Notes under the pieces: model-generated
What the model saw: only the letters and a program-made list of their open reading frames with translations
Database searches by the model: none
Told to the model about the DNA's origin: nothing
Program-made: the position numbers and the translations under genes
Assembly: GCA_032881465.1 (NCBI GenBank)
Contig: CP126168.1
Span: 1,798,001-1,862,000, forward strand
Reading direction: 5' to 3'
DNA length: 64,000 bases
Source: Parvibaculaceae bacterium PLY_AMNH_Bact1
GTDB lineage: Bacteria > Pseudomonadota > Alphaproteobacteria > Parvibaculales > Parvibaculaceae
Shown here: piece after piece, positions 6,298 to 60,326 of the stretch
How the letters are laid out: each line of letters opens with the position of its first letter
Position numbering within the stretch: position 1 is the stretch's first letter

Positions 6298-7059
6298 GGC
6301 GTTCAGTGTCTCCGCTCGCGCCTCATCCATCAAGGCCCGCATTCTCTTTATCGAGGCGTCCAGCCCAATAAAGATCGCCTCACCAATCAGAAAATGTCCG
6401 ATATTGAGCTCTTTGACCTCTGGCATTGCGGCAACTGGGCCGACCGTATCAAAGGTGAGACCATGACCTACATGAACCTCAAGCCCCATCTCTGCGCCTG
6501 CCGTTGCAGCCTCCTGTATCCGCGCGAGCTCCCGGCCCGCAGTAGCGCCATCTCCATCGAAACAGGCATCGCAATAAGCCCCCGCGTGGAGCTCAACCAC
6601 AGGAGCTTTTAAGCTCACGGCCGCTTCGAGCTGTCTTTGGTCTGCTTCGATGAACAGCGACACACGAGCCGACGCCGCCGACAGTTCGGAAATCATCGGT
6701 GCAAGCCTATTATGTTGCCCCGCGACATCAAGGCCACCTTCCGTTGTCCGCTCTTCCCGGTTTTCCGGCACCAGGCAGACCGCGTGAGGCCGGTGTCGAA
6801 GAGCGATCTCCATCATTTCATCCGTCGCTGCCATCTCCAGATTGAGGGGAAGCGTTAGTTGATCCATGAGACGATCAATATCCTCATCCGAAATATGGCG
6901 GCGGTCTTCACGAAGATGCGCCGTGATGCCGTCCGCACCTGCAGCGGCGGCAATATTGGCTGCACGCAGAGGATCAGGATGCCCGCCACCGCGCGCATTT
7001 CGAATGGTCGCCACATGGTCGATATTCACGCCCAGACGTAGTTCATGTCTGTCAGTCAT
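6295..7059 (-). CDS. pdxJ: pyridoxine 5'-phosphate synthase
   Basis: 254 residues. The start [18 protein letters not shown] is the PdxJ signature, followed by [18 protein letters not shown] and VELHAGAY; the C-terminus has [11 protein letters not shown] and [14 protein letters not shown], all phosphate- or substrate-binding loops of this TIM barrel. It condenses 1-deoxyxylulose 5-phosphate with 3-amino-2-oxopropyl phosphate in vitamin B6 synthesis. It is 14 bases after a DUF2062 gene and ahead of acpS, the order seen in other Alphaproteobacteria. The stop codon lies inside the palindromic repeat. Confidence 0.97.
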
Positions 7060-7073
7060 CTATCCCTCTCGCC

Positions 7074-7658
7074 CTAGAGCTCAGCAATCACACCTTGCTC
7101 ATCAGAGCTGTCTTCGCGGATCGCTGCCAGTTTTGCCAACCGGTCACGGCGTTTGGCCTGGTATGCTTCAACCGTACTGCGGGTGAGGTAATAGACTATT
7201 CCTGCCGTCACAAGGCCCAATGGGATACCGCCAACCAACATTGGCACCAGAACCGGCAAAACACCGTCCCAAGCCTGCCCTGACAACATATCGACCTGTA
7301 GTTCTGGTTCAGACGGTGCCTCTGATCCCTGCAACAGCCAGTACCCAAGGTCATACGTCGCAAGCCAGATGAACGGGAATGTCAGCGGGTTTCCAACAAA
7401 AGTCCCAAATGCCGACGCGATGAGATTACCGCGGAGCACCCAGGCAATGGCGAACCCGATAGCAAAGTGAAAACCGATAAAAGGCGTGAAAGAGGCAAAA
7501 GCCCCCGCCGACACTCCCAGCGCGACCGCATGAGGTGTCCCGCCAAGCCGCCATACGCGCCGCCATCCATATTGAAACGCACGCTTCCAGCCTAGCCGTG
7601 GCCAGACGAGCTCACGTAGACGCTCAATTGGGTGGAGTTCAACACGACGACGAAACAT
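7074..7658 (-). CDS. DUF2062 membrane protein
   Basis: 194 residues. Basic N-terminus (RRVELHPIERLRELVWPRLGW), then the DUF2062 core SAGAFASFTPFIGFHFAIGF, then FVGNPLTFPFIWLATYDLG and a further hydrophobic segment near residues 140-160. I count three to four membrane segments. The family is common beside pdxJ or acpS in Alphaproteobacteria but its function is unknown. It lies 6 bases from pyrE and 14 from pdxJ, so it belongs to the same transcript. Confidence 0.85.
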   Translation of the reverse strand: MFRRRVELHPIERLRELVWPRLGWKRAFQYGWRRVWRLGGTPHAVALGVSAGAFASFTPFIGFHFAIGFAIAWVLRGNLIASAFGTFVGNPLTFPFIWLATYDLGYWLLQGSEAPSEPELQVDMLSGQAWDGVLPVLVPMLVGGIPLGLVTAGIVYYLTRSTVEAYQAKRRDRLAKLAAIREDSSDEQGVIAEL

Positions 7659-44885: not shown

Positions 44886-45131
44886 CTAAAGACACTCTCG
44901 CTCATACTCGGCGGAAAGTGCGTTGTGGTCTTTGATGAGCTGGACGCGGGCTGACAGGTTCTCAATCAGCATTCCAATCGTCTCACCTTCAGAATAAGCC
45001 CGTTGCTCAATTGGCTGGGGCAGCGGCTTTGGCGCTATCAGATCCGGGCTCAGTTGGCATTCCTTGAAGGAAAGCGTTGAACCGCATGCTGCCAAGCTCA
45101 GTGAGGCCGCAATGATCATCATTCTCAGCAT
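44886..45131 (-). CDS. o-spanin (Rz1-like) lipoprotein
   Basis: 81 residues from ATG 45131. A short signal peptide ends in the lipobox LSLAACG, then a short periplasmic chain with paired Pro residues (PKPLPQP) and a C-terminal Cys. The gene starts inside the i-spanin gene in another frame, overlapping it by 125 bases. With the i-spanin it would fuse inner and outer membranes in the last step of lysis. Confidence 0.8.
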   Translation of the reverse strand: MLRMMIIAASLSLAACGSTLSFKECQLSPDLIAPKPLPQPIEQRAYSEGETIGMLIENLSARVQLIKDHNALSAEYERECL

Positions 45132-45378
45132 CTTGAATTGCCTCGCTCGTTCGGGTTCTCGTTTCTGTCGATCGTCTTTCGCGCTCAAGGTTACGCCGCG
45201 CTGCCGCCTTAAAGTCCGCCTTGTCGTTTACCTGGCGCGTCTCTTCGTGATCTTCGATCTGGGCCAACATGGCACTGTCGTTCTGCCAATTCGCGACCTT
45301 GTAGCCACCGCCAAAACCGACGATGAGCCCAACAGCCAAGCACGCGGCACCAACCTTTAGACTTGAAAAAACCATCAC
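45007..45378 (-). CDS. i-spanin (Rz-like)
   Basis: 123 residues. One N-terminal membrane helix (VGAACLAVGLIVGFGGGYKV) is followed by a charged coiled coil (DHEETRQVNDKADFKAAARR and on), the Rz layout with a cytoplasmic start and periplasmic body. The C-terminal region overlaps the o-spanin gene in a different frame. Its start overlaps the stop of the small membrane protein upstream by 4 bases. Confidence 0.8.
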   Translation of the reverse strand: MMVFSSLKVGAACLAVGLIVGFGGGYKVANWQNDSAMLAQIEDHEETRQVNDKADFKAAARRNLERERRSTETRTRTSEAIQDAENDDHCGLTELGSMRFNAFLQGMPTEPGSDSAKAAAPAN

Positions 45379-54994: not shown

Positions 54995-55372
54995 TCAGAA
55001 ACCCTCCAAATTGTGCTCTTCTTTGATGTCGATAACACCAGAGCGAGAAGTGTTGTGGATGCAGTAGATCAATGTGTTGTCTTCGAGAGAGAGAAAAGCG
55101 TGTTTCTCATTTGCCTCAATAAAGATGGAGCAAGGTGCTACGAATTCTCCCAGTAGATCACCATCTTTCCAGGCCTTAACTGACCCTCGGGCGAGCATAC
55201 TGGTATGGTCGTATTCGTGCGCATGCTGCGGCACCAAGGTGTTCCTTTTTGGAATATCCATCGAAACAATGGCCACTCCATCTGCAGTGGTGAAGTCCAA
55301 CCGAATGGGCTGTTCAATGTCCTCATGACTAAGACAGGTGTTACAATCAACGCCAGGTATGCAGTTCATCAT
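54995..55372 (-). CDS. cupin-fold protein in virion gene cluster
   Basis: 125 residues. Cupin motif 1 is LVPQHAHEYDHTSMLARG with H50, H52, E53 and H56, and motif 2 FVAPCSIFIEANEKHAFL with H91: enough ligands for one metal. The N-terminus has three Cys (CIPGVDCNTC). It is directly adjacent to the hydroxylase gene (no gap) and 1 base from the first ejection gene. Small cupins can be isomerases, oxygenases or sugar-binding proteins; here it may act with the hydroxylase on a virion protein or on host metabolites. Confidence 0.75.
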   Translation of the reverse strand: MMNCIPGVDCNTCLSHEDIEQPIRLDFTTADGVAIVSMDIPKRNTLVPQHAHEYDHTSMLARGSVKAWKDGDLLGEFVAPCSIFIEANEKHAFLSLEDNTLIYCIHNTSRSGVIDIKEEHNLEGF

Positions 55373-55942
55373 CTACCTCTTCACACACACAATCATTGCT
55401 ATGCGCTCTTCGTCGCTATCATTCTCAACCCAGTGGAGACGATCATTGCGAAACCGCCATACGTCGCCGTCAGACGCCGCTATTTGGCCATCTTCCCAGC
55501 AGAAGCGGGCCCCCGGGCGCACCTTCACCGCGACGTAGTACTTCTCATGAACATCGGCATGCCATCCACTGTCGATATGGGGCAAGACTCTCCCGCCCGG
55601 TTCCAGTTTCGTAAGGAGAACACCACCAAGAGAACTCCCGCCGACCAGCTTGAGAACTAGATCAGATATCCTTTTGGCCGCGGGGAGCTGCAAGGCAGGG
55701 GCGAGCCAAACACTCTCATGTTCATCGCAGAAGGCTGACATATCCGACCCATGCTCATCTATGAACTGGTCTAGGTCGCGGAACCGTACCCAAATATCCG
55801 TCGAACCCTCATGAGGGGAGCCTGGCATGACCCGTGCGCTCTGTTCGCCCCAGAGGTGATTATTCGCCTCGATCTCACTCCCAAGTTCCGCAACTTGAAT
55901 GCCGGTCGCTATGAGCTCAAAAGATGGATCATTAGAAATCAT
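55373..55942 (-). CDS. aspartyl/asparaginyl beta-hydroxylase family 2OG-Fe(II) oxygenase
   Basis: 189 residues from ATG 55942 with GAGG upstream; a TTG at 55963 is not needed. LEPGGRVLPHIDSGWHADVH gives H122 and D124, WRFRNDRLHWVENDSDEER gives H170 and the R180 that binds 2-oxoglutarate: the full Fe(II)/2OG triad of this family. It could hydroxylate Asp or Asn side chains in a virion or host protein. It is inserted with the cupin gene in the structural module, immediately before the ejection genes. Confidence 0.78.
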   Translation of the reverse strand: MISNDPSFELIATGIQVAELGSEIEANNHLWGEQSARVMPGSPHEGSTDIWVRFRDLDQFIDEHGSDMSAFCDEHESVWLAPALQLPAAKRISDLVLKLVGGSSLGGVLLTKLEPGGRVLPHIDSGWHADVHEKYYVAVKVRPGARFCWEDGQIAASDGDVWRFRNDRLHWVENDSDEERIAMIVCVKR

Positions 55943-56513: not shown

Positions 56514-57038
56514 CTAAAGGTTCTGGATGATCAAAAAGTCATAGGTAACGGCGGCAGACGCTCCAGGAGCCGCTACCAGCGTCACCGTAAAACCGGTTGT
56601 CGATTTCTCTATCGTCTTGATCTGACGGGCTCCGCTCGCGGGCGAGCCGGTTTGGTCTACAATCTGGCAAAGGACAAAATAGGTGGAGCTCGCGCGTTCC
56701 TCTGAGAACTGGAGCTGTGCGAAATCATTCGTGCCCGATACCGTGAATTGGCCCGCATCCTCCGGGAACCGTCCCCGGACCTCCTGAAGCGCAAGGTTGG
56801 CGATCAGCTGAGCTAGTGCCAGAGACGTTTGGGCCGGGTCAGGTAGAACTCCTGTCTCTTCGAAATCACCGGTACTTGCATGGAACGCTGGGTCCAGCAT
56901 CTTGCTTTCACGCACCGCAGATTGAATAAACAGGTTCATCCACTGTTGAACCGCTTGAGCATCGGCCTCCTGGTTTCCTGTCAATCTCGGTTGAGGGGGA
57001 ACCGATACGTCATTGTTTTTTGGCGGCAGCGCAGGCAT
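56514..57038 (-). CDS. putative tail needle or fibre-tip protein
   Basis: 174 residues. Polar, Pro-rich start, a helix (EADAQAVQQWMNLFIQSAVR), and a beta-rich C-terminus (QIKTIEKSTTGFTVTLVAAP then AVTYDFLIIQNL) that looks like a small knob domain of phage fibres or tail needles. It overlaps the gp10-like gene by one base and lies where P22 encodes the tail needle gp26. The assignment is positional. Confidence 0.5.
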   Translation of the reverse strand: MPALPPKNNDVSVPPQPRLTGNQEADAQAVQQWMNLFIQSAVRESKMLDPAFHASTGDFEETGVLPDPAQTSLALAQLIANLALQEVRGRFPEDAGQFTVSGTNDFAQLQFSEERASSTYFVLCQIVDQTGSPASGARQIKTIEKSTTGFTVTLVAAPGASAAVTYDFLIIQNL

Positions 57039-58447
57039 CAGTTTTCCAGTCCCACTGCCATGATGTCCGCTCCCATGAGATCAACTGGACAGTCATCCGA
57101 CGTTGAAATCTCGAACTGGAACGAACCGGCGGACCCGAACTGTCCAAATTCAATGAACGGCGCTGTCTGGCCAGCTTTCCCGAGCGAGCGCTGCACCCAG
57201 TTTCCAAACGGCTTCCCGTCTCTGGAACATCGAACCCCTATCTCCGGGCTGCTGGTATTGCCGCTAAACCCACGTCGCACGCGAAGCCGCAGGTTCTGGA
57301 CCTGCAGTAGAGATCCACTCGCGGCATGACCTGTGCGGACGAGCCATCTCTGTGTTTTGCCATCCAGCGTGTAGGCGGTGTCTGAGAGCTCATAGATCTT
57401 GCCCTCACCACCAACAAACACACGGCCCCAGATTGTCCAGTGGGACCAGCCAGGCCAGCGCGCCGGCACACCATTCTGCTCATCCCACCCGTACAACGTG
57501 AACCAGCGTTTCGCGCGATAATCGAGGACCAGGGTAATTCCCTTAGTCCCGTAGGGTGTGGTTGCGTGGGGCAACTGCAGTAGAATGAACTTCTGCCCAA
57601 GTGTGTGCAGCGGTTTGTCTGGAAAGCCTCCGATCCAGGCATCTGACCAGTCGTCAACCTTCTCAAGAAGACGGCCTATCTCAGCGGACTGAGCAACGGA
57701 GACCTGGCCCGAGAACCTTACGAACTCAGTGAGACTGTTCATCGTCCACACTGCATTATCAGCGAAGATCATACCGTAGGGGAGCTTCACCCCCTCGCCG
57801 ACCGCCCAGCGTCTAAAGAAGGGCACTGATCCCGTCAGGTTCCGCTCAAACTGTTCAACTGAATTAGCGCCCCCAATCATCATTTCCCGAAACGGGGTGA
57901 TCATGAGGCTGTTTACATCGTCTGGGTTGCCATCAGCAGAGAACACGTCAAGCGGGTTCCATTTGGAGATGTCACCGCCTTCTGAGTTAAAGAAGCGACC
58001 CGAATTAGGCTCTGCCGCAACGAGATAGCCGTCAATCCATCCCACATGTGTCGCGTGGGGCGCATCTTCACTGAGAAGCTCTGTCTTCTCGCCACGCAGT
58101 CGGATGATGGGGCCACCGGCTGCCATCGTTAACTCACGGTCAGACTGCGCAAATATCACTCGCCGACCACCTGATACGGGCACGCCTGTCTTGTTCGTGA
58201 CATTCCCCGAACGATCAACTTGGTACACCTGACCCTTTGAGGTGGCTGCAATCATGTCGCCACCTAACTCAGAGAGATAAATGCGTCCGTTGCCTCCGAC
58301 GTCGGCGAAAGGGATAAGGCCTGGGAAGCGGGTATGCCCTCCCTGCTCGTTGATAAAGCTGTTCTCAATCGCCGTCTGATACCCCAGCACGGCGCCCTCG
58401 GGCTGGTTGAGGTACAGCGGATTGTTGAGTGGAAGGGGTTCCCATCT
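57038..58447 (-). CDS. gp10-like tail hub / packaged-DNA stabilisation protein
   Basis: 469 residues from ATG 58447 (MRWEPLPLNNPLYLNQPEG), close to the 472 of P22 gp10. An upstream extension to 58507 would overlap the spike gene. The chain is beta-rich with repeated Gly-Tyr and Trp motifs (WIDGYLVAAEPNSGRFF, TPFREMMIGGANSVEQFERN, YGMIFADNAVWTMNSLTEF), the pattern of the gp10 propeller. It would bind below the portal adaptor and hold the DNA in. Position between adaptor and ejection genes supports this. Confidence 0.7.
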   Translation of the reverse strand, partial: RWEPLPLNNPLYLNQPEGAVLGYQTAIENSFINEQGGHTRFPGLIPFADVGGNGRIYLSELGGDMIAATSKGQVYQVDRSGNVTNKTGVPVSGGRRVIFAQSDRELTMAAGGPIIRLRGEKTELLSEDAPHATHVGWIDGYLVAAEPNSGRFFNSEGGDISKWNPLDVFSADGNPDDVNSLMITPFREMMIGGANSVEQFERNLTGSVPFFRRWAVGEGVKLPYGMIFADNAVWTMNSLTEFVRFSGQVSVAQSAEIGRLLEKVDDWSDAWIGGFPDKPLHTLGQKFILLQLPHATTPYGTKGITLVLDYRAKRWFTLYGWDEQNGVPARWPGWSHWTIWGRVFVGGEGKIYELSDTAYTLDGKTQRWLVRTGHAASGSLLQVQNLRLRVRRGFSGNTSSPEIGVRCSRDGKPFGNWVQRSLGKAGQTAPFIEFGQFGSAGSFQFEISTSDDCPVDLMGADIMAVGLEN

Positions 58448-58454
58448 CATACGA

Positions 58455-60326
58455 TCAATCCACCACCTCGACGTCCACCGTCCACTCAATCGTCTGGTCA
58501 ACGACACCTGTCACTCTAAGTTCAATCTCAGGACCGTTTGCGACCAGCGTTGCGTCCCAGTTTGCATCGGTCTCCTGGGCTGCTCTCAGGGCCGTCACAG
58601 ACCCGACAAGTGCAGCATCAGACGTTGATGTCGTTCCATTCGCTGTTGCGGAGCCACCGGCACCATCTGAGATGATTTCGTTATCCTCAAAGGTTCCGAC
58701 AAGATCGTGGAGTGTGAGCGTGCCCGTCGTCCCGCTATCGCTGTCGGCCACGATCCGAGCCGTTGCTCCCGATGTCGCCCCTGTCAGGACGTTACCGACC
58801 GTAAAGTTGCTCGTCTGCGTGTCATAATCCAGTGCTGCGCCGGGGCGCCGGACTGATGCCGCCAGGTGATAGAAACCGTGGTTCACGCCATTTCGTTGGC
58901 GCCCAATGACCTTGGCTTCAAGATAGGCATGCTGCCCCGGCTCAAGAGCCAACGCCCATGCTTTGGTGGCGGCATCTCCAGCGGTCAGGCCAAAGGATGC
59001 GCCTTTGTTGGCACTCTTGCGCCGCTCCCATGCTGTAGAAACACCGTTGATGGTCGTGTCATCATCTTCCCTGCAGTCCAGGGCAAGGACATTGTGTTGC
59101 GGCGTGGTGAGCGAGACATCCACATCTAGGAATTCTATGTGATGGAAGACAACCGTTTCCAAATTCCCAGCGAGCGCAATAGCTCCGCCTGAGATCTGAC
59201 CGCCCTCAAGGAGAAGGTCGATCACCGTTGCATCGGGATCGTCCGGGGTTTTGTCGGAGACATCGAGATCGGTCGTGTTTGCCTTCCACCAGCAGTCGCG
59301 TAGCCGCAGACCACGTGATCCAATGACTTTCATCGCCGTACCGGTATTCGTGTCAAAACCGACAGACTGGAGCGTGAAGTGCCCACAAGCCGCATCCACA
59401 TGTTCAAATTCGACACCAAGCGCCGAACAAAGGGAGACGGATCCACCGACCCATTGCCCAAACTGGAATGCTGAACCGTTTGCGCCTCCGCCAGCGTCGG
59501 TATCCCCCTTGAGCCGCACTCCGTTGACGCAATCTGAGACATAGAAGTCCTGCAGGGCAAAGCCAAAACCACCACGAACAGAAAGCCCCGTCTCGAAGCG
59601 CTTTACCTCACAATCATGCAACACAATCTGATCGTTTGCTTTGGAGTAGATCCCGACCGATAAGGCAACCTGGCTCACCCCATCGATCGTAAGTCTGGAG
59701 AAACCAGCCCTATCACCGCCGATTGTCGCGATGTTCCCGCTATCTGTACACTTGAGTGTCGTCGCTCCCCTGCCCTGACCTCTCAGGATGACACCTGTCG
59801 GCAGTGTAAAAGCATTGACCGCATAGGTGCCTGCGGGCAGTTCAACAAAACCGCCACCGGCAGAGCCCGCGACCCCGATCGCGGACACTAACGTCGCTGT
59901 ATTCGTGGCGTCACTCGCACCGTCTTCGCCCGTCGCAAGGAAACTACCGAAATCTCGGACATCAATGCGCCGACCCAAATGGTCCGCCAAGCTGACCGCT
60001 TCTGTCCCATCAGAAACGATTACGGTTGCAAGGGATGCGTTCACACCATCGAGCGTGGTCAGTGGAATGCGCTGAACGCCAGTTGTGTCGGTTGAGTTGA
60101 TCGTCAGCTGGTAGGGTTCATTGATGTAGAGGGGCTCACTAAACTTGCCGTAGGAAGTACCGTTTTCTGTTTTTTCTAACAGCGTAACTGGATTAGCCAC
60201 CTCGACCGTCAGGGCTTCATCCTTATAGATGGATGCAAGACTTGTCGTCCCGGCCTGAACAACACGAACCGTGGCAAGACCAAATCCGGGTCGCCACGTA
60301 TCAAACTCCGCTATACGTTGCGCCAT
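58455..60326 (-). CDS. tailspike-like protein with right-handed beta-helix
   Basis: 623 residues. A head-binding-like N-terminus (FDTWRPGFGLATVRVVQAG) with a link motif near IDVRDFGSFLATGEDGASDA, the common pectate-lyase-superfamily start. From about residue 160 the chain has repeated short strands (GGFVELPAGTYAVNAFTLPT, LRGQGRGATTLKC) of a beta-helix through about residue 400. The C-terminal domain may be a trimerisation or receptor domain (VGNVLTGATSGATARIVADS). Substrate glycan unknown. One gene upstream of the gp10-like protein. Confidence 0.75.
   Translation of the reverse strand: MAQRIAEFDTWRPGFGLATVRVVQAGTTSLASIYKDEALTVEVANPVTLLEKTENGTSYGKFSEPLYINEPYQLTINSTDTTGVQRIPLTTLDGVNASLATVIVSDGTEAVSLADHLGRRIDVRDFGSFLATGEDGASDATNTATLVSAIGVAGSAGGGFVELPAGTYAVNAFTLPTGVILRGQGRGATTLKCTDSGNIATIGGDRAGFSRLTIDGVSQVALSVGIYSKANDQIVLHDCEVKRFETGLSVRGGFGFALQDFYVSDCVNGVRLKGDTDAGGGANGSAFQFGQWVGGSVSLCSALGVEFEHVDAACGHFTLQSVGFDTNTGTAMKVIGSRGLRLRDCWWKANTTDLDVSDKTPDDPDATVIDLLLEGGQISGGAIALAGNLETVVFHHIEFLDVDVSLTTPQHNVLALDCREDDDTTINGVSTAWERRKSANKGASFGLTAGDAATKAWALALEPGQHAYLEAKVIGRQRNGVNHGFYHLAASVRRPGAALDYDTQTSNFTVGNVLTGATSGATARIVADSDSGTTGTLTLHDLVGTFEDNEIISDGAGGSATANGTTSTSDAALVGSVTALRAAQETDANWDATLVANGPEIELRVTGVVDQTIEWTVDVEVVD

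Follow-up and report, generated by a model that had tools for sequence, protein, structure and literature searches.

Podoviruses build a channel out of proteins carried inside the head, and the way in which they do so is still an open problem. In phage P22, the late genes follow the order 10-26-14-7-20-16, and gene 14 lies directly upstream of the first ejection gene; in T7, where the order is 13-14-15-16, the same place is occupied by gene 13. To our knowledge, T7 gp13 and P22 gp14 have no clear role so far, and their database names are 'probable scaffold protein' (T7 gp13, Pfam) and 'head morphogenesis' (P22 gp14, PHROGs). P22 gene 14 and T7 IVPA, the product of gene 13, have been described as distant homologues (PMC10386132). 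The position of these genes in the late order is shared by a slot that holds a hydroxylase gene and a cupin gene in the prophage analyzed here. However, the hydroxylase and the cupin differ from P22 gp14 and T7 gp13 in having other folds and intact enzyme sites, and neither protein of the prophage matched PF11039 (P22 gp14) or PF11090 (T7 gp13).

The window, i.e., the whole stretch of 64,000 nucleotides that was analyzed, belongs to a bacterial genome of 3.74 Mb in which the prophage resides. Table 1 summarizes the corresponding features. No bases separate the hydroxylase stop from the cupin start, as the original prediction had stated, and 1 base lies between the cupin stop and the ATG of the ejection gene (54993). 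The gene for the head-closure protein Hc3 was located upstream of the hydroxylase in the same late gene run, and the portal and both terminase subunits were encoded in the same region outside the window. Thus, a P22-like temperate podovirus has its late region here, and both the hydroxylase and the cupin gene belong to the phage, as part of its late (head-tail) run. As a separate observation on the same prophage, two nested small ORFs at 44886-45378 (-) resemble an Rz/Rz1 spanin pair, the inner one carrying a lipobox-like LAAC.

Table 1. Features of the slot and its neighbourhood, with window coordinates
Feature	Coordinates	Strand	Basis
2OG-Fe(II) oxygenase, Asp/Asn beta-hydroxylase family (PF05118), 189 aa	55373..55942	(-)	Pfam, ligands, predicted structure
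Small cupin, putative four-His + Cys104 site, 125 aa	54995..55372	(-)	relatives' matches, alignment, model
T7 gp14-type / P22 gp7-like ejection (internal virion) protein, 279 aa	54154..54993	(-)	Pfam
Second ejection protein candidate (gp15/gp20 position), 531 aa	52562..54157	(-)	gene order only
Third ejection protein candidate (gp16 position), 925 aa	49783..52560	(-)	gene order only
Head-closure protein Hc3 (P22 gp10-like)	57038..58507	(-)	phrog_578, E 6.8e-28

The gene after the cupin was assigned to the T7_gp14 family (PF24072) with 29 bits against a cut-off of 27. It had been described as a gp7-like ejection gene 1 base away; the distance was correct, and the protein itself is of the gp14 type by Pfam, its counterparts at other loci being those that matched P22 gp7 or the PHROG 'DNA ejection'. 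Among 63 downstream proteins, phrog_598 ('DNA ejection') was matched by 28, P22_gp7 by 8, and T7_gp14 by 2. In the case of the second and third ejection candidates of the window, no convincing family was found in Pfam, PHROGs, or NCBIfam.

Compared with the nearest relative, amino acid identity was 61% for the hydroxylase and 60% for the cupin, and pN/pS was 0.31 and 0.30, respectively, with pS near saturation. Since both genes were more conserved at the protein than at the DNA level and the pair was kept in many viral contigs, chance or mis-read ORFs were ruled out (pN/pS about 0.3 for both genes). Capture of a host gene near the prophage was also ruled out, as the cupin was found in 0/60 genomes of relatives besides that of the window. 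Within the class, 19 other genomes had hydroxylase homologues, and no ejection genes adjoined the five nearest of these within the flanks examined.

The hydroxylase ORF, counted from the ATG, encodes 189 residues and matched Pfam PF05118 (Asp_Arg_Hydrox) with an E value of 7.8e-7 (29.5 bits; cut-off, 22.6). The full H-x-D...H...R set that had been claimed for it was present, namely, H122, D124, and H170 as the Fe ligands by family and R180 as the 2-oxoglutarate arginine. In the alignment of homologues, on which the original prediction could be checked, these four residues showed no variation (75/75), and all 75 members matched PF05118 with E values no higher than 0.01. Structure prediction (pLDDT 96.4) gave a complete DSBH oxygenase with a best Z of 15.5. 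The DSBH fold and the HxD...H plus Arg arrangement are common to the window enzyme, the PF05118 family (AspH and L-proline cis-4-hydroxylase), and proline 3-hydroxylase. Against AspH and the proline hydroxylases, the model gave Z of 14.8-15.5 over about 145-170 residues, whereas the window enzyme differs from them in its 10-18% identity, its minimal 189-aa form, and its location in a phage ejection cassette.

The closest solved enzyme by sequence profile was L-proline cis-4-hydroxylase, which acts on free proline, with AspH behind it. In the fold comparison, hydroxylases of free amino acids and hydroxylases of proteins, including PHD2, were tied within one Z unit, and a nucleoside-antibiotic hydroxylase was also matched. 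It had been stated that this family modifies Asp or Asn in proteins, which was too strong for such an enzyme. Judging from the profiles and the model, the family name PF05118 says little about the substrate.

Similar to the hydroxylase, the cupin showed an intact site, although not the predicted one. His and Glu ligands had been expected, and the site was found to consist of four His (H50, H52, H56, and H91) and C104, without variation in the alignment of 70/70 relatives; E53 lies within the motif but not at a ligand position. In the four-His cupin TM1459, His likewise replaces the usual Glu, as H56 does in the window cupin. The HxHxxxH...H...C pattern and the small barrel are shared with TM1459, KdgF, DddK, and CelOCE, and, unlike these, the window cupin adjoins phage ejection genes. 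The window sequence alone scored below the cut-off of Pfam Cupin_2 (E 0.034), and 54/70 of its relatives matched this family. The model was a small cupin barrel (pLDDT 81.5) with Z-scores of 11.6 for TM1459, 12.7 for KdgF, and 13.2 for DddK. Taking alignment and model together, the window cupin is a putative four-His metal cupin of the TM1459 type. The database names are of another kind: phrog_12032 ('short tail fiber protein') was matched by 65/70 cupins and phrog_24280 ('tail fiber adhesin') by 52/70, and the GenBank records of VPMS1, BA3, and VvAW1 label the cupin as a tail fibre or adhesin type. Nothing fibre-like was found in the cupin sequence and predicted fold, which comprise a single barrel of 105-125 aa with no fibre repeats. 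The tail labels of these two PHROGs, when attached to four-His cupins of ejection cassettes, look wrong.

The conservation of the arrangement was determined by profile searches of viral contigs, in which 288 stretches had hydroxylase relatives and 302 had cupin relatives, and the best 80 of each were examined. In total, 165 loci were tallied: 69 with hydroxylase and cupin, 29 with hydroxylase and a sulfotransferase-like gene, 61 with a cupin and no hydroxylase, and 6 with the hydroxylase alone. A gp7/gp14-like gene downstream, recognized by a start of MP plus a large hydrophobic residue (MPW, MPF, and the like), was found at 64/69, 24/29, and 61/61 of the first three types, respectively. The coupling of the pair to ejection genes, for which a search of other phages had been suggested, was thus borne out, the neighbourhood being kept in unrelated phage contigs. 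The median gap from hydroxylase to cupin was -3 bases, and the sulfotransferase-like partner came after the hydroxylase at 4/29 of its loci. In INPHARED, 3 records had a hydroxylase match, none with a cupin beside the hydroxylase, and no record was matched by the window's cupin. An exception to the slot rule was observed at two loci, L275 and L279, where the gene after the sulfotransferase-like one encodes a protein of ~1300 aa (MPKELLEIKNFTLG..) unlike gp7. As a separate observation, in CBW1004C-Prop1 (L206:74-604), a gene annotated 'sulfotransferase family 2' lies four genes 5' of a gp7-like gene.

Scans with the sulfotransferase-like protein and the slot GNAT added 158 further loci, and the resulting pool of 323 loci, drawn from phage records as well as viral contigs, was reduced to 164 at 85% identity. 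All of the following counts are subject to the choice of loci by similarity, the lack of independence among related contigs, and the narrowness of the GNAT profile. When the slot was coded by its contents (C, cupin; S, sulfotransferase-like P-loop protein; G, GNAT acetyltransferase; H, hydroxylase), the 164 non-redundant loci were distributed as C+H 43, S 41, S+H 31, C 19, G+H 17, G 8, H 3, and G+S 2. Exactly one partner was present in 91/94 hydroxylase loci, and each partner type also occurred without the hydroxylase, as the S, C, and G classes show. A cupin together with a sulfotransferase-like or GNAT partner was found in 0/164 loci. For cupin versus sulfotransferase-like partner among hydroxylase loci, the Fisher p was about 1e-11, the loci being not fully independent. 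The gene order was largely constant for each partner: H then C in 38/43, S then H in 29/31, and H then G in 17/17. Placing the C and S labels on the hydroxylase tree requires at least 6 changes, of which about 3 are forced by supported branches alone; thus, the partner has been replaced repeatedly.

Accordingly, the podovirus slot directly 5' of the first ejection gene contains the hydroxylase and a single partner, for which three types can stand in for one another, or a partner alone. The two genes of the window had been regarded as a unit, and this view held only in part: they are kept together in many contigs, but the cupin also stands alone, and a sulfotransferase-like or GNAT partner may take its place. 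A fixed two-step pathway of hydroxylase and cupin was ruled out, as the cupin alone was found at 61 loci and the hydroxylase takes other partners. In the sulfotransferase-like and GNAT set, phrog_598 was matched by 30/60 downstream proteins and related families by 7 more; the exception was the GNAT-only loci, where the gene after the GNAT was often not ejection-like. The acetyl-CoA loop was kept in the slot GNATs. In the P-loop partner, the LPRS.T.W loop was invariant, Sulfotransfer_3 was matched by only 7/20 (best E 2.4e-4), and no solved sulfotransferase was matched in the comparison with solved structures; its identity as a sulfotransferase is a tentative one, based on sequence.

The slot was also recognized in isolated phages. 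A cupin occupies it in VPMS1, BA3, VvAW1, DSL-LC05, and P26218; in Vibrio phage VPMS1 and Thalassomonas phage BA3, the slot before the ejection genes is of the cupin-only type. A GNAT occupies it in PfAn1, DC33, Pam1, and Zobellviridae, and it is the gene directly before the gp7-like gene in PfAn1 (L009), DC33 (L008), and Pam1 (L203). Pseudomonas phage PfAn1 and Limnohabitans phage DC33 have the hydroxylase as well, which their records leave unnamed. The slot GNATs showed no alignment or homology to P22 gp14 or T7 gp13 in single-sequence comparison. In PAE2 (L205), the slot protein is an unnamed 135-aa protein with a GNAT-like C-terminal stretch, LRCGFSEEGRMKNVFLKNG, and no family match.

Clues to the substrate were sought in the adjacent ejection protein, the alignment of which was poor. 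At hydroxylase-bearing loci, no column of this alignment reached 50% Asp/Asn; thus, hydroxylation of Asp or Asn in this protein, as the original prediction had it, is not supported by sequence. In the same poor alignment, prolines were present at about 80%, equally conserved without the hydroxylase. Enrichment of Asn in the ejection protein at hydroxylase loci was weak (p 0.057). The near-invariant Pro2 of the MPW-type ejection proteins was rejected as a specific substrate because several cupin phages have proteins starting with MS.. and Pro2 is common without the hydroxylase. The target of the hydroxylase may be another virion protein, a proline, or a variable site. Overall, the earlier interpretation was partly supported.

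Since the sites are intact, the place by the ejection gene is fixed, the spacing is tight, and enzyme types are exchanged, a maturation slot is the simplest account of these results. We consider the chances about even that the late-expressed slot encodes maturation enzymes whose target, an ejection protein or some other protein of the virion, is modified before the head is assembled. The slot enzymes and the ejection proteins would be translated from one message. Among the ejection proteins, the gp14/gp7-like neighbour would be the most likely target, and modification would take place in the infected cell, ahead of the target's entry into the procapsid. A side chain would be hydroxylated by the Fe(II)/2-oxoglutarate oxygenase and a second modification would come from the partner, which might tune how stable the ejected channel is, how it inserts into the membrane, or how it is released. 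In many short-tailed phages, the prophage of the window among them, a hydroxylase and a swappable second enzyme directly precede the gene of an ejected protein, which suggests that such phages complete their machinery for DNA injection by chemical means. A wider proposal is held more tentatively and falls somewhat short of an even chance: an exchangeable podovirus cassette would modify the phage's own ejection proteins post-translationally by hydroxylation plus cupin oxidation/isomerisation, sulfation, or acetylation, the modified ejectosome would differ functionally from the bare one, and P22 gp14 and T7 gp13 would be known but unrecognised occupants of the same slot.

The slot proteins could instead be dedicated to helping the ejection proteins assemble or fold, the enzyme folds serving as binding scaffolds with catalysis secondary or absent, as has been suggested for T7 gp13, and the scaffold and morphogenesis names given to T7 gp13 and P22 gp14 at the same position are in keeping with this. 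However, a pure scaffold would have no need of three kinds of enzyme chemistry with intact sites, and in both the hydroxylase and the cupin the metal or cofactor ligands stay the same among widely diverged homologues, which makes this reading unlikely. It is slightly more doubtful still that the hydroxylase has a small-molecule substrate late in infection (an amino acid such as free proline, a nucleotide, or a precursor of lipid A) and that its position reflects only the late operon. The free-proline enzyme nearest by profile and the fold match to a nucleoside-antibiotic hydroxylase would fit such a role, but a metabolic gene would have no reason to keep one slot adjoining the ejection gene, whether or not accompanied by any of three partner types, across such diversity. 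Packaging of the slot enzymes, followed by their ejection with the ejection proteins and the modification of a host envelope or defence protein as infection begins, appears improbable: no sign of packaging and no fusion to ejection proteins were seen in the loci examined, although the genes adjoin those of ejected proteins and the models are of small soluble enzymes. A role of the cupin as tail adhesin or short tail fibre, which the PHROG matches and GenBank labels imply, deserves hardly any credence for a lone metal-type cupin barrel with an invariant four-His site and no fibre repeats, replaced by enzymes in sister phages.

Because the slot is conserved and its occupant is one or another of several enzymes with intact sites, the results point to a step of channel building in which virion proteins are chemically modified. 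The folds are each known, and neither the arrangement nor the swapping of partners in the P22 gp14/T7 gp13 slot was found described in the open-access literature. In that literature, no description was found in which ejection genes are accompanied by a hydroxylase, a cupin, a sulfotransferase, or a GNAT, and subscription papers may hold one. Moreover, the finding puts the 'tail fibre adhesin' database labels of the cupin in question. The same cupin family was also observed in the siphovirus Xanthomonas phage Mallos (L191), where it is encoded at 6947-7312 amid DNA-metabolism genes, away from ejection genes.
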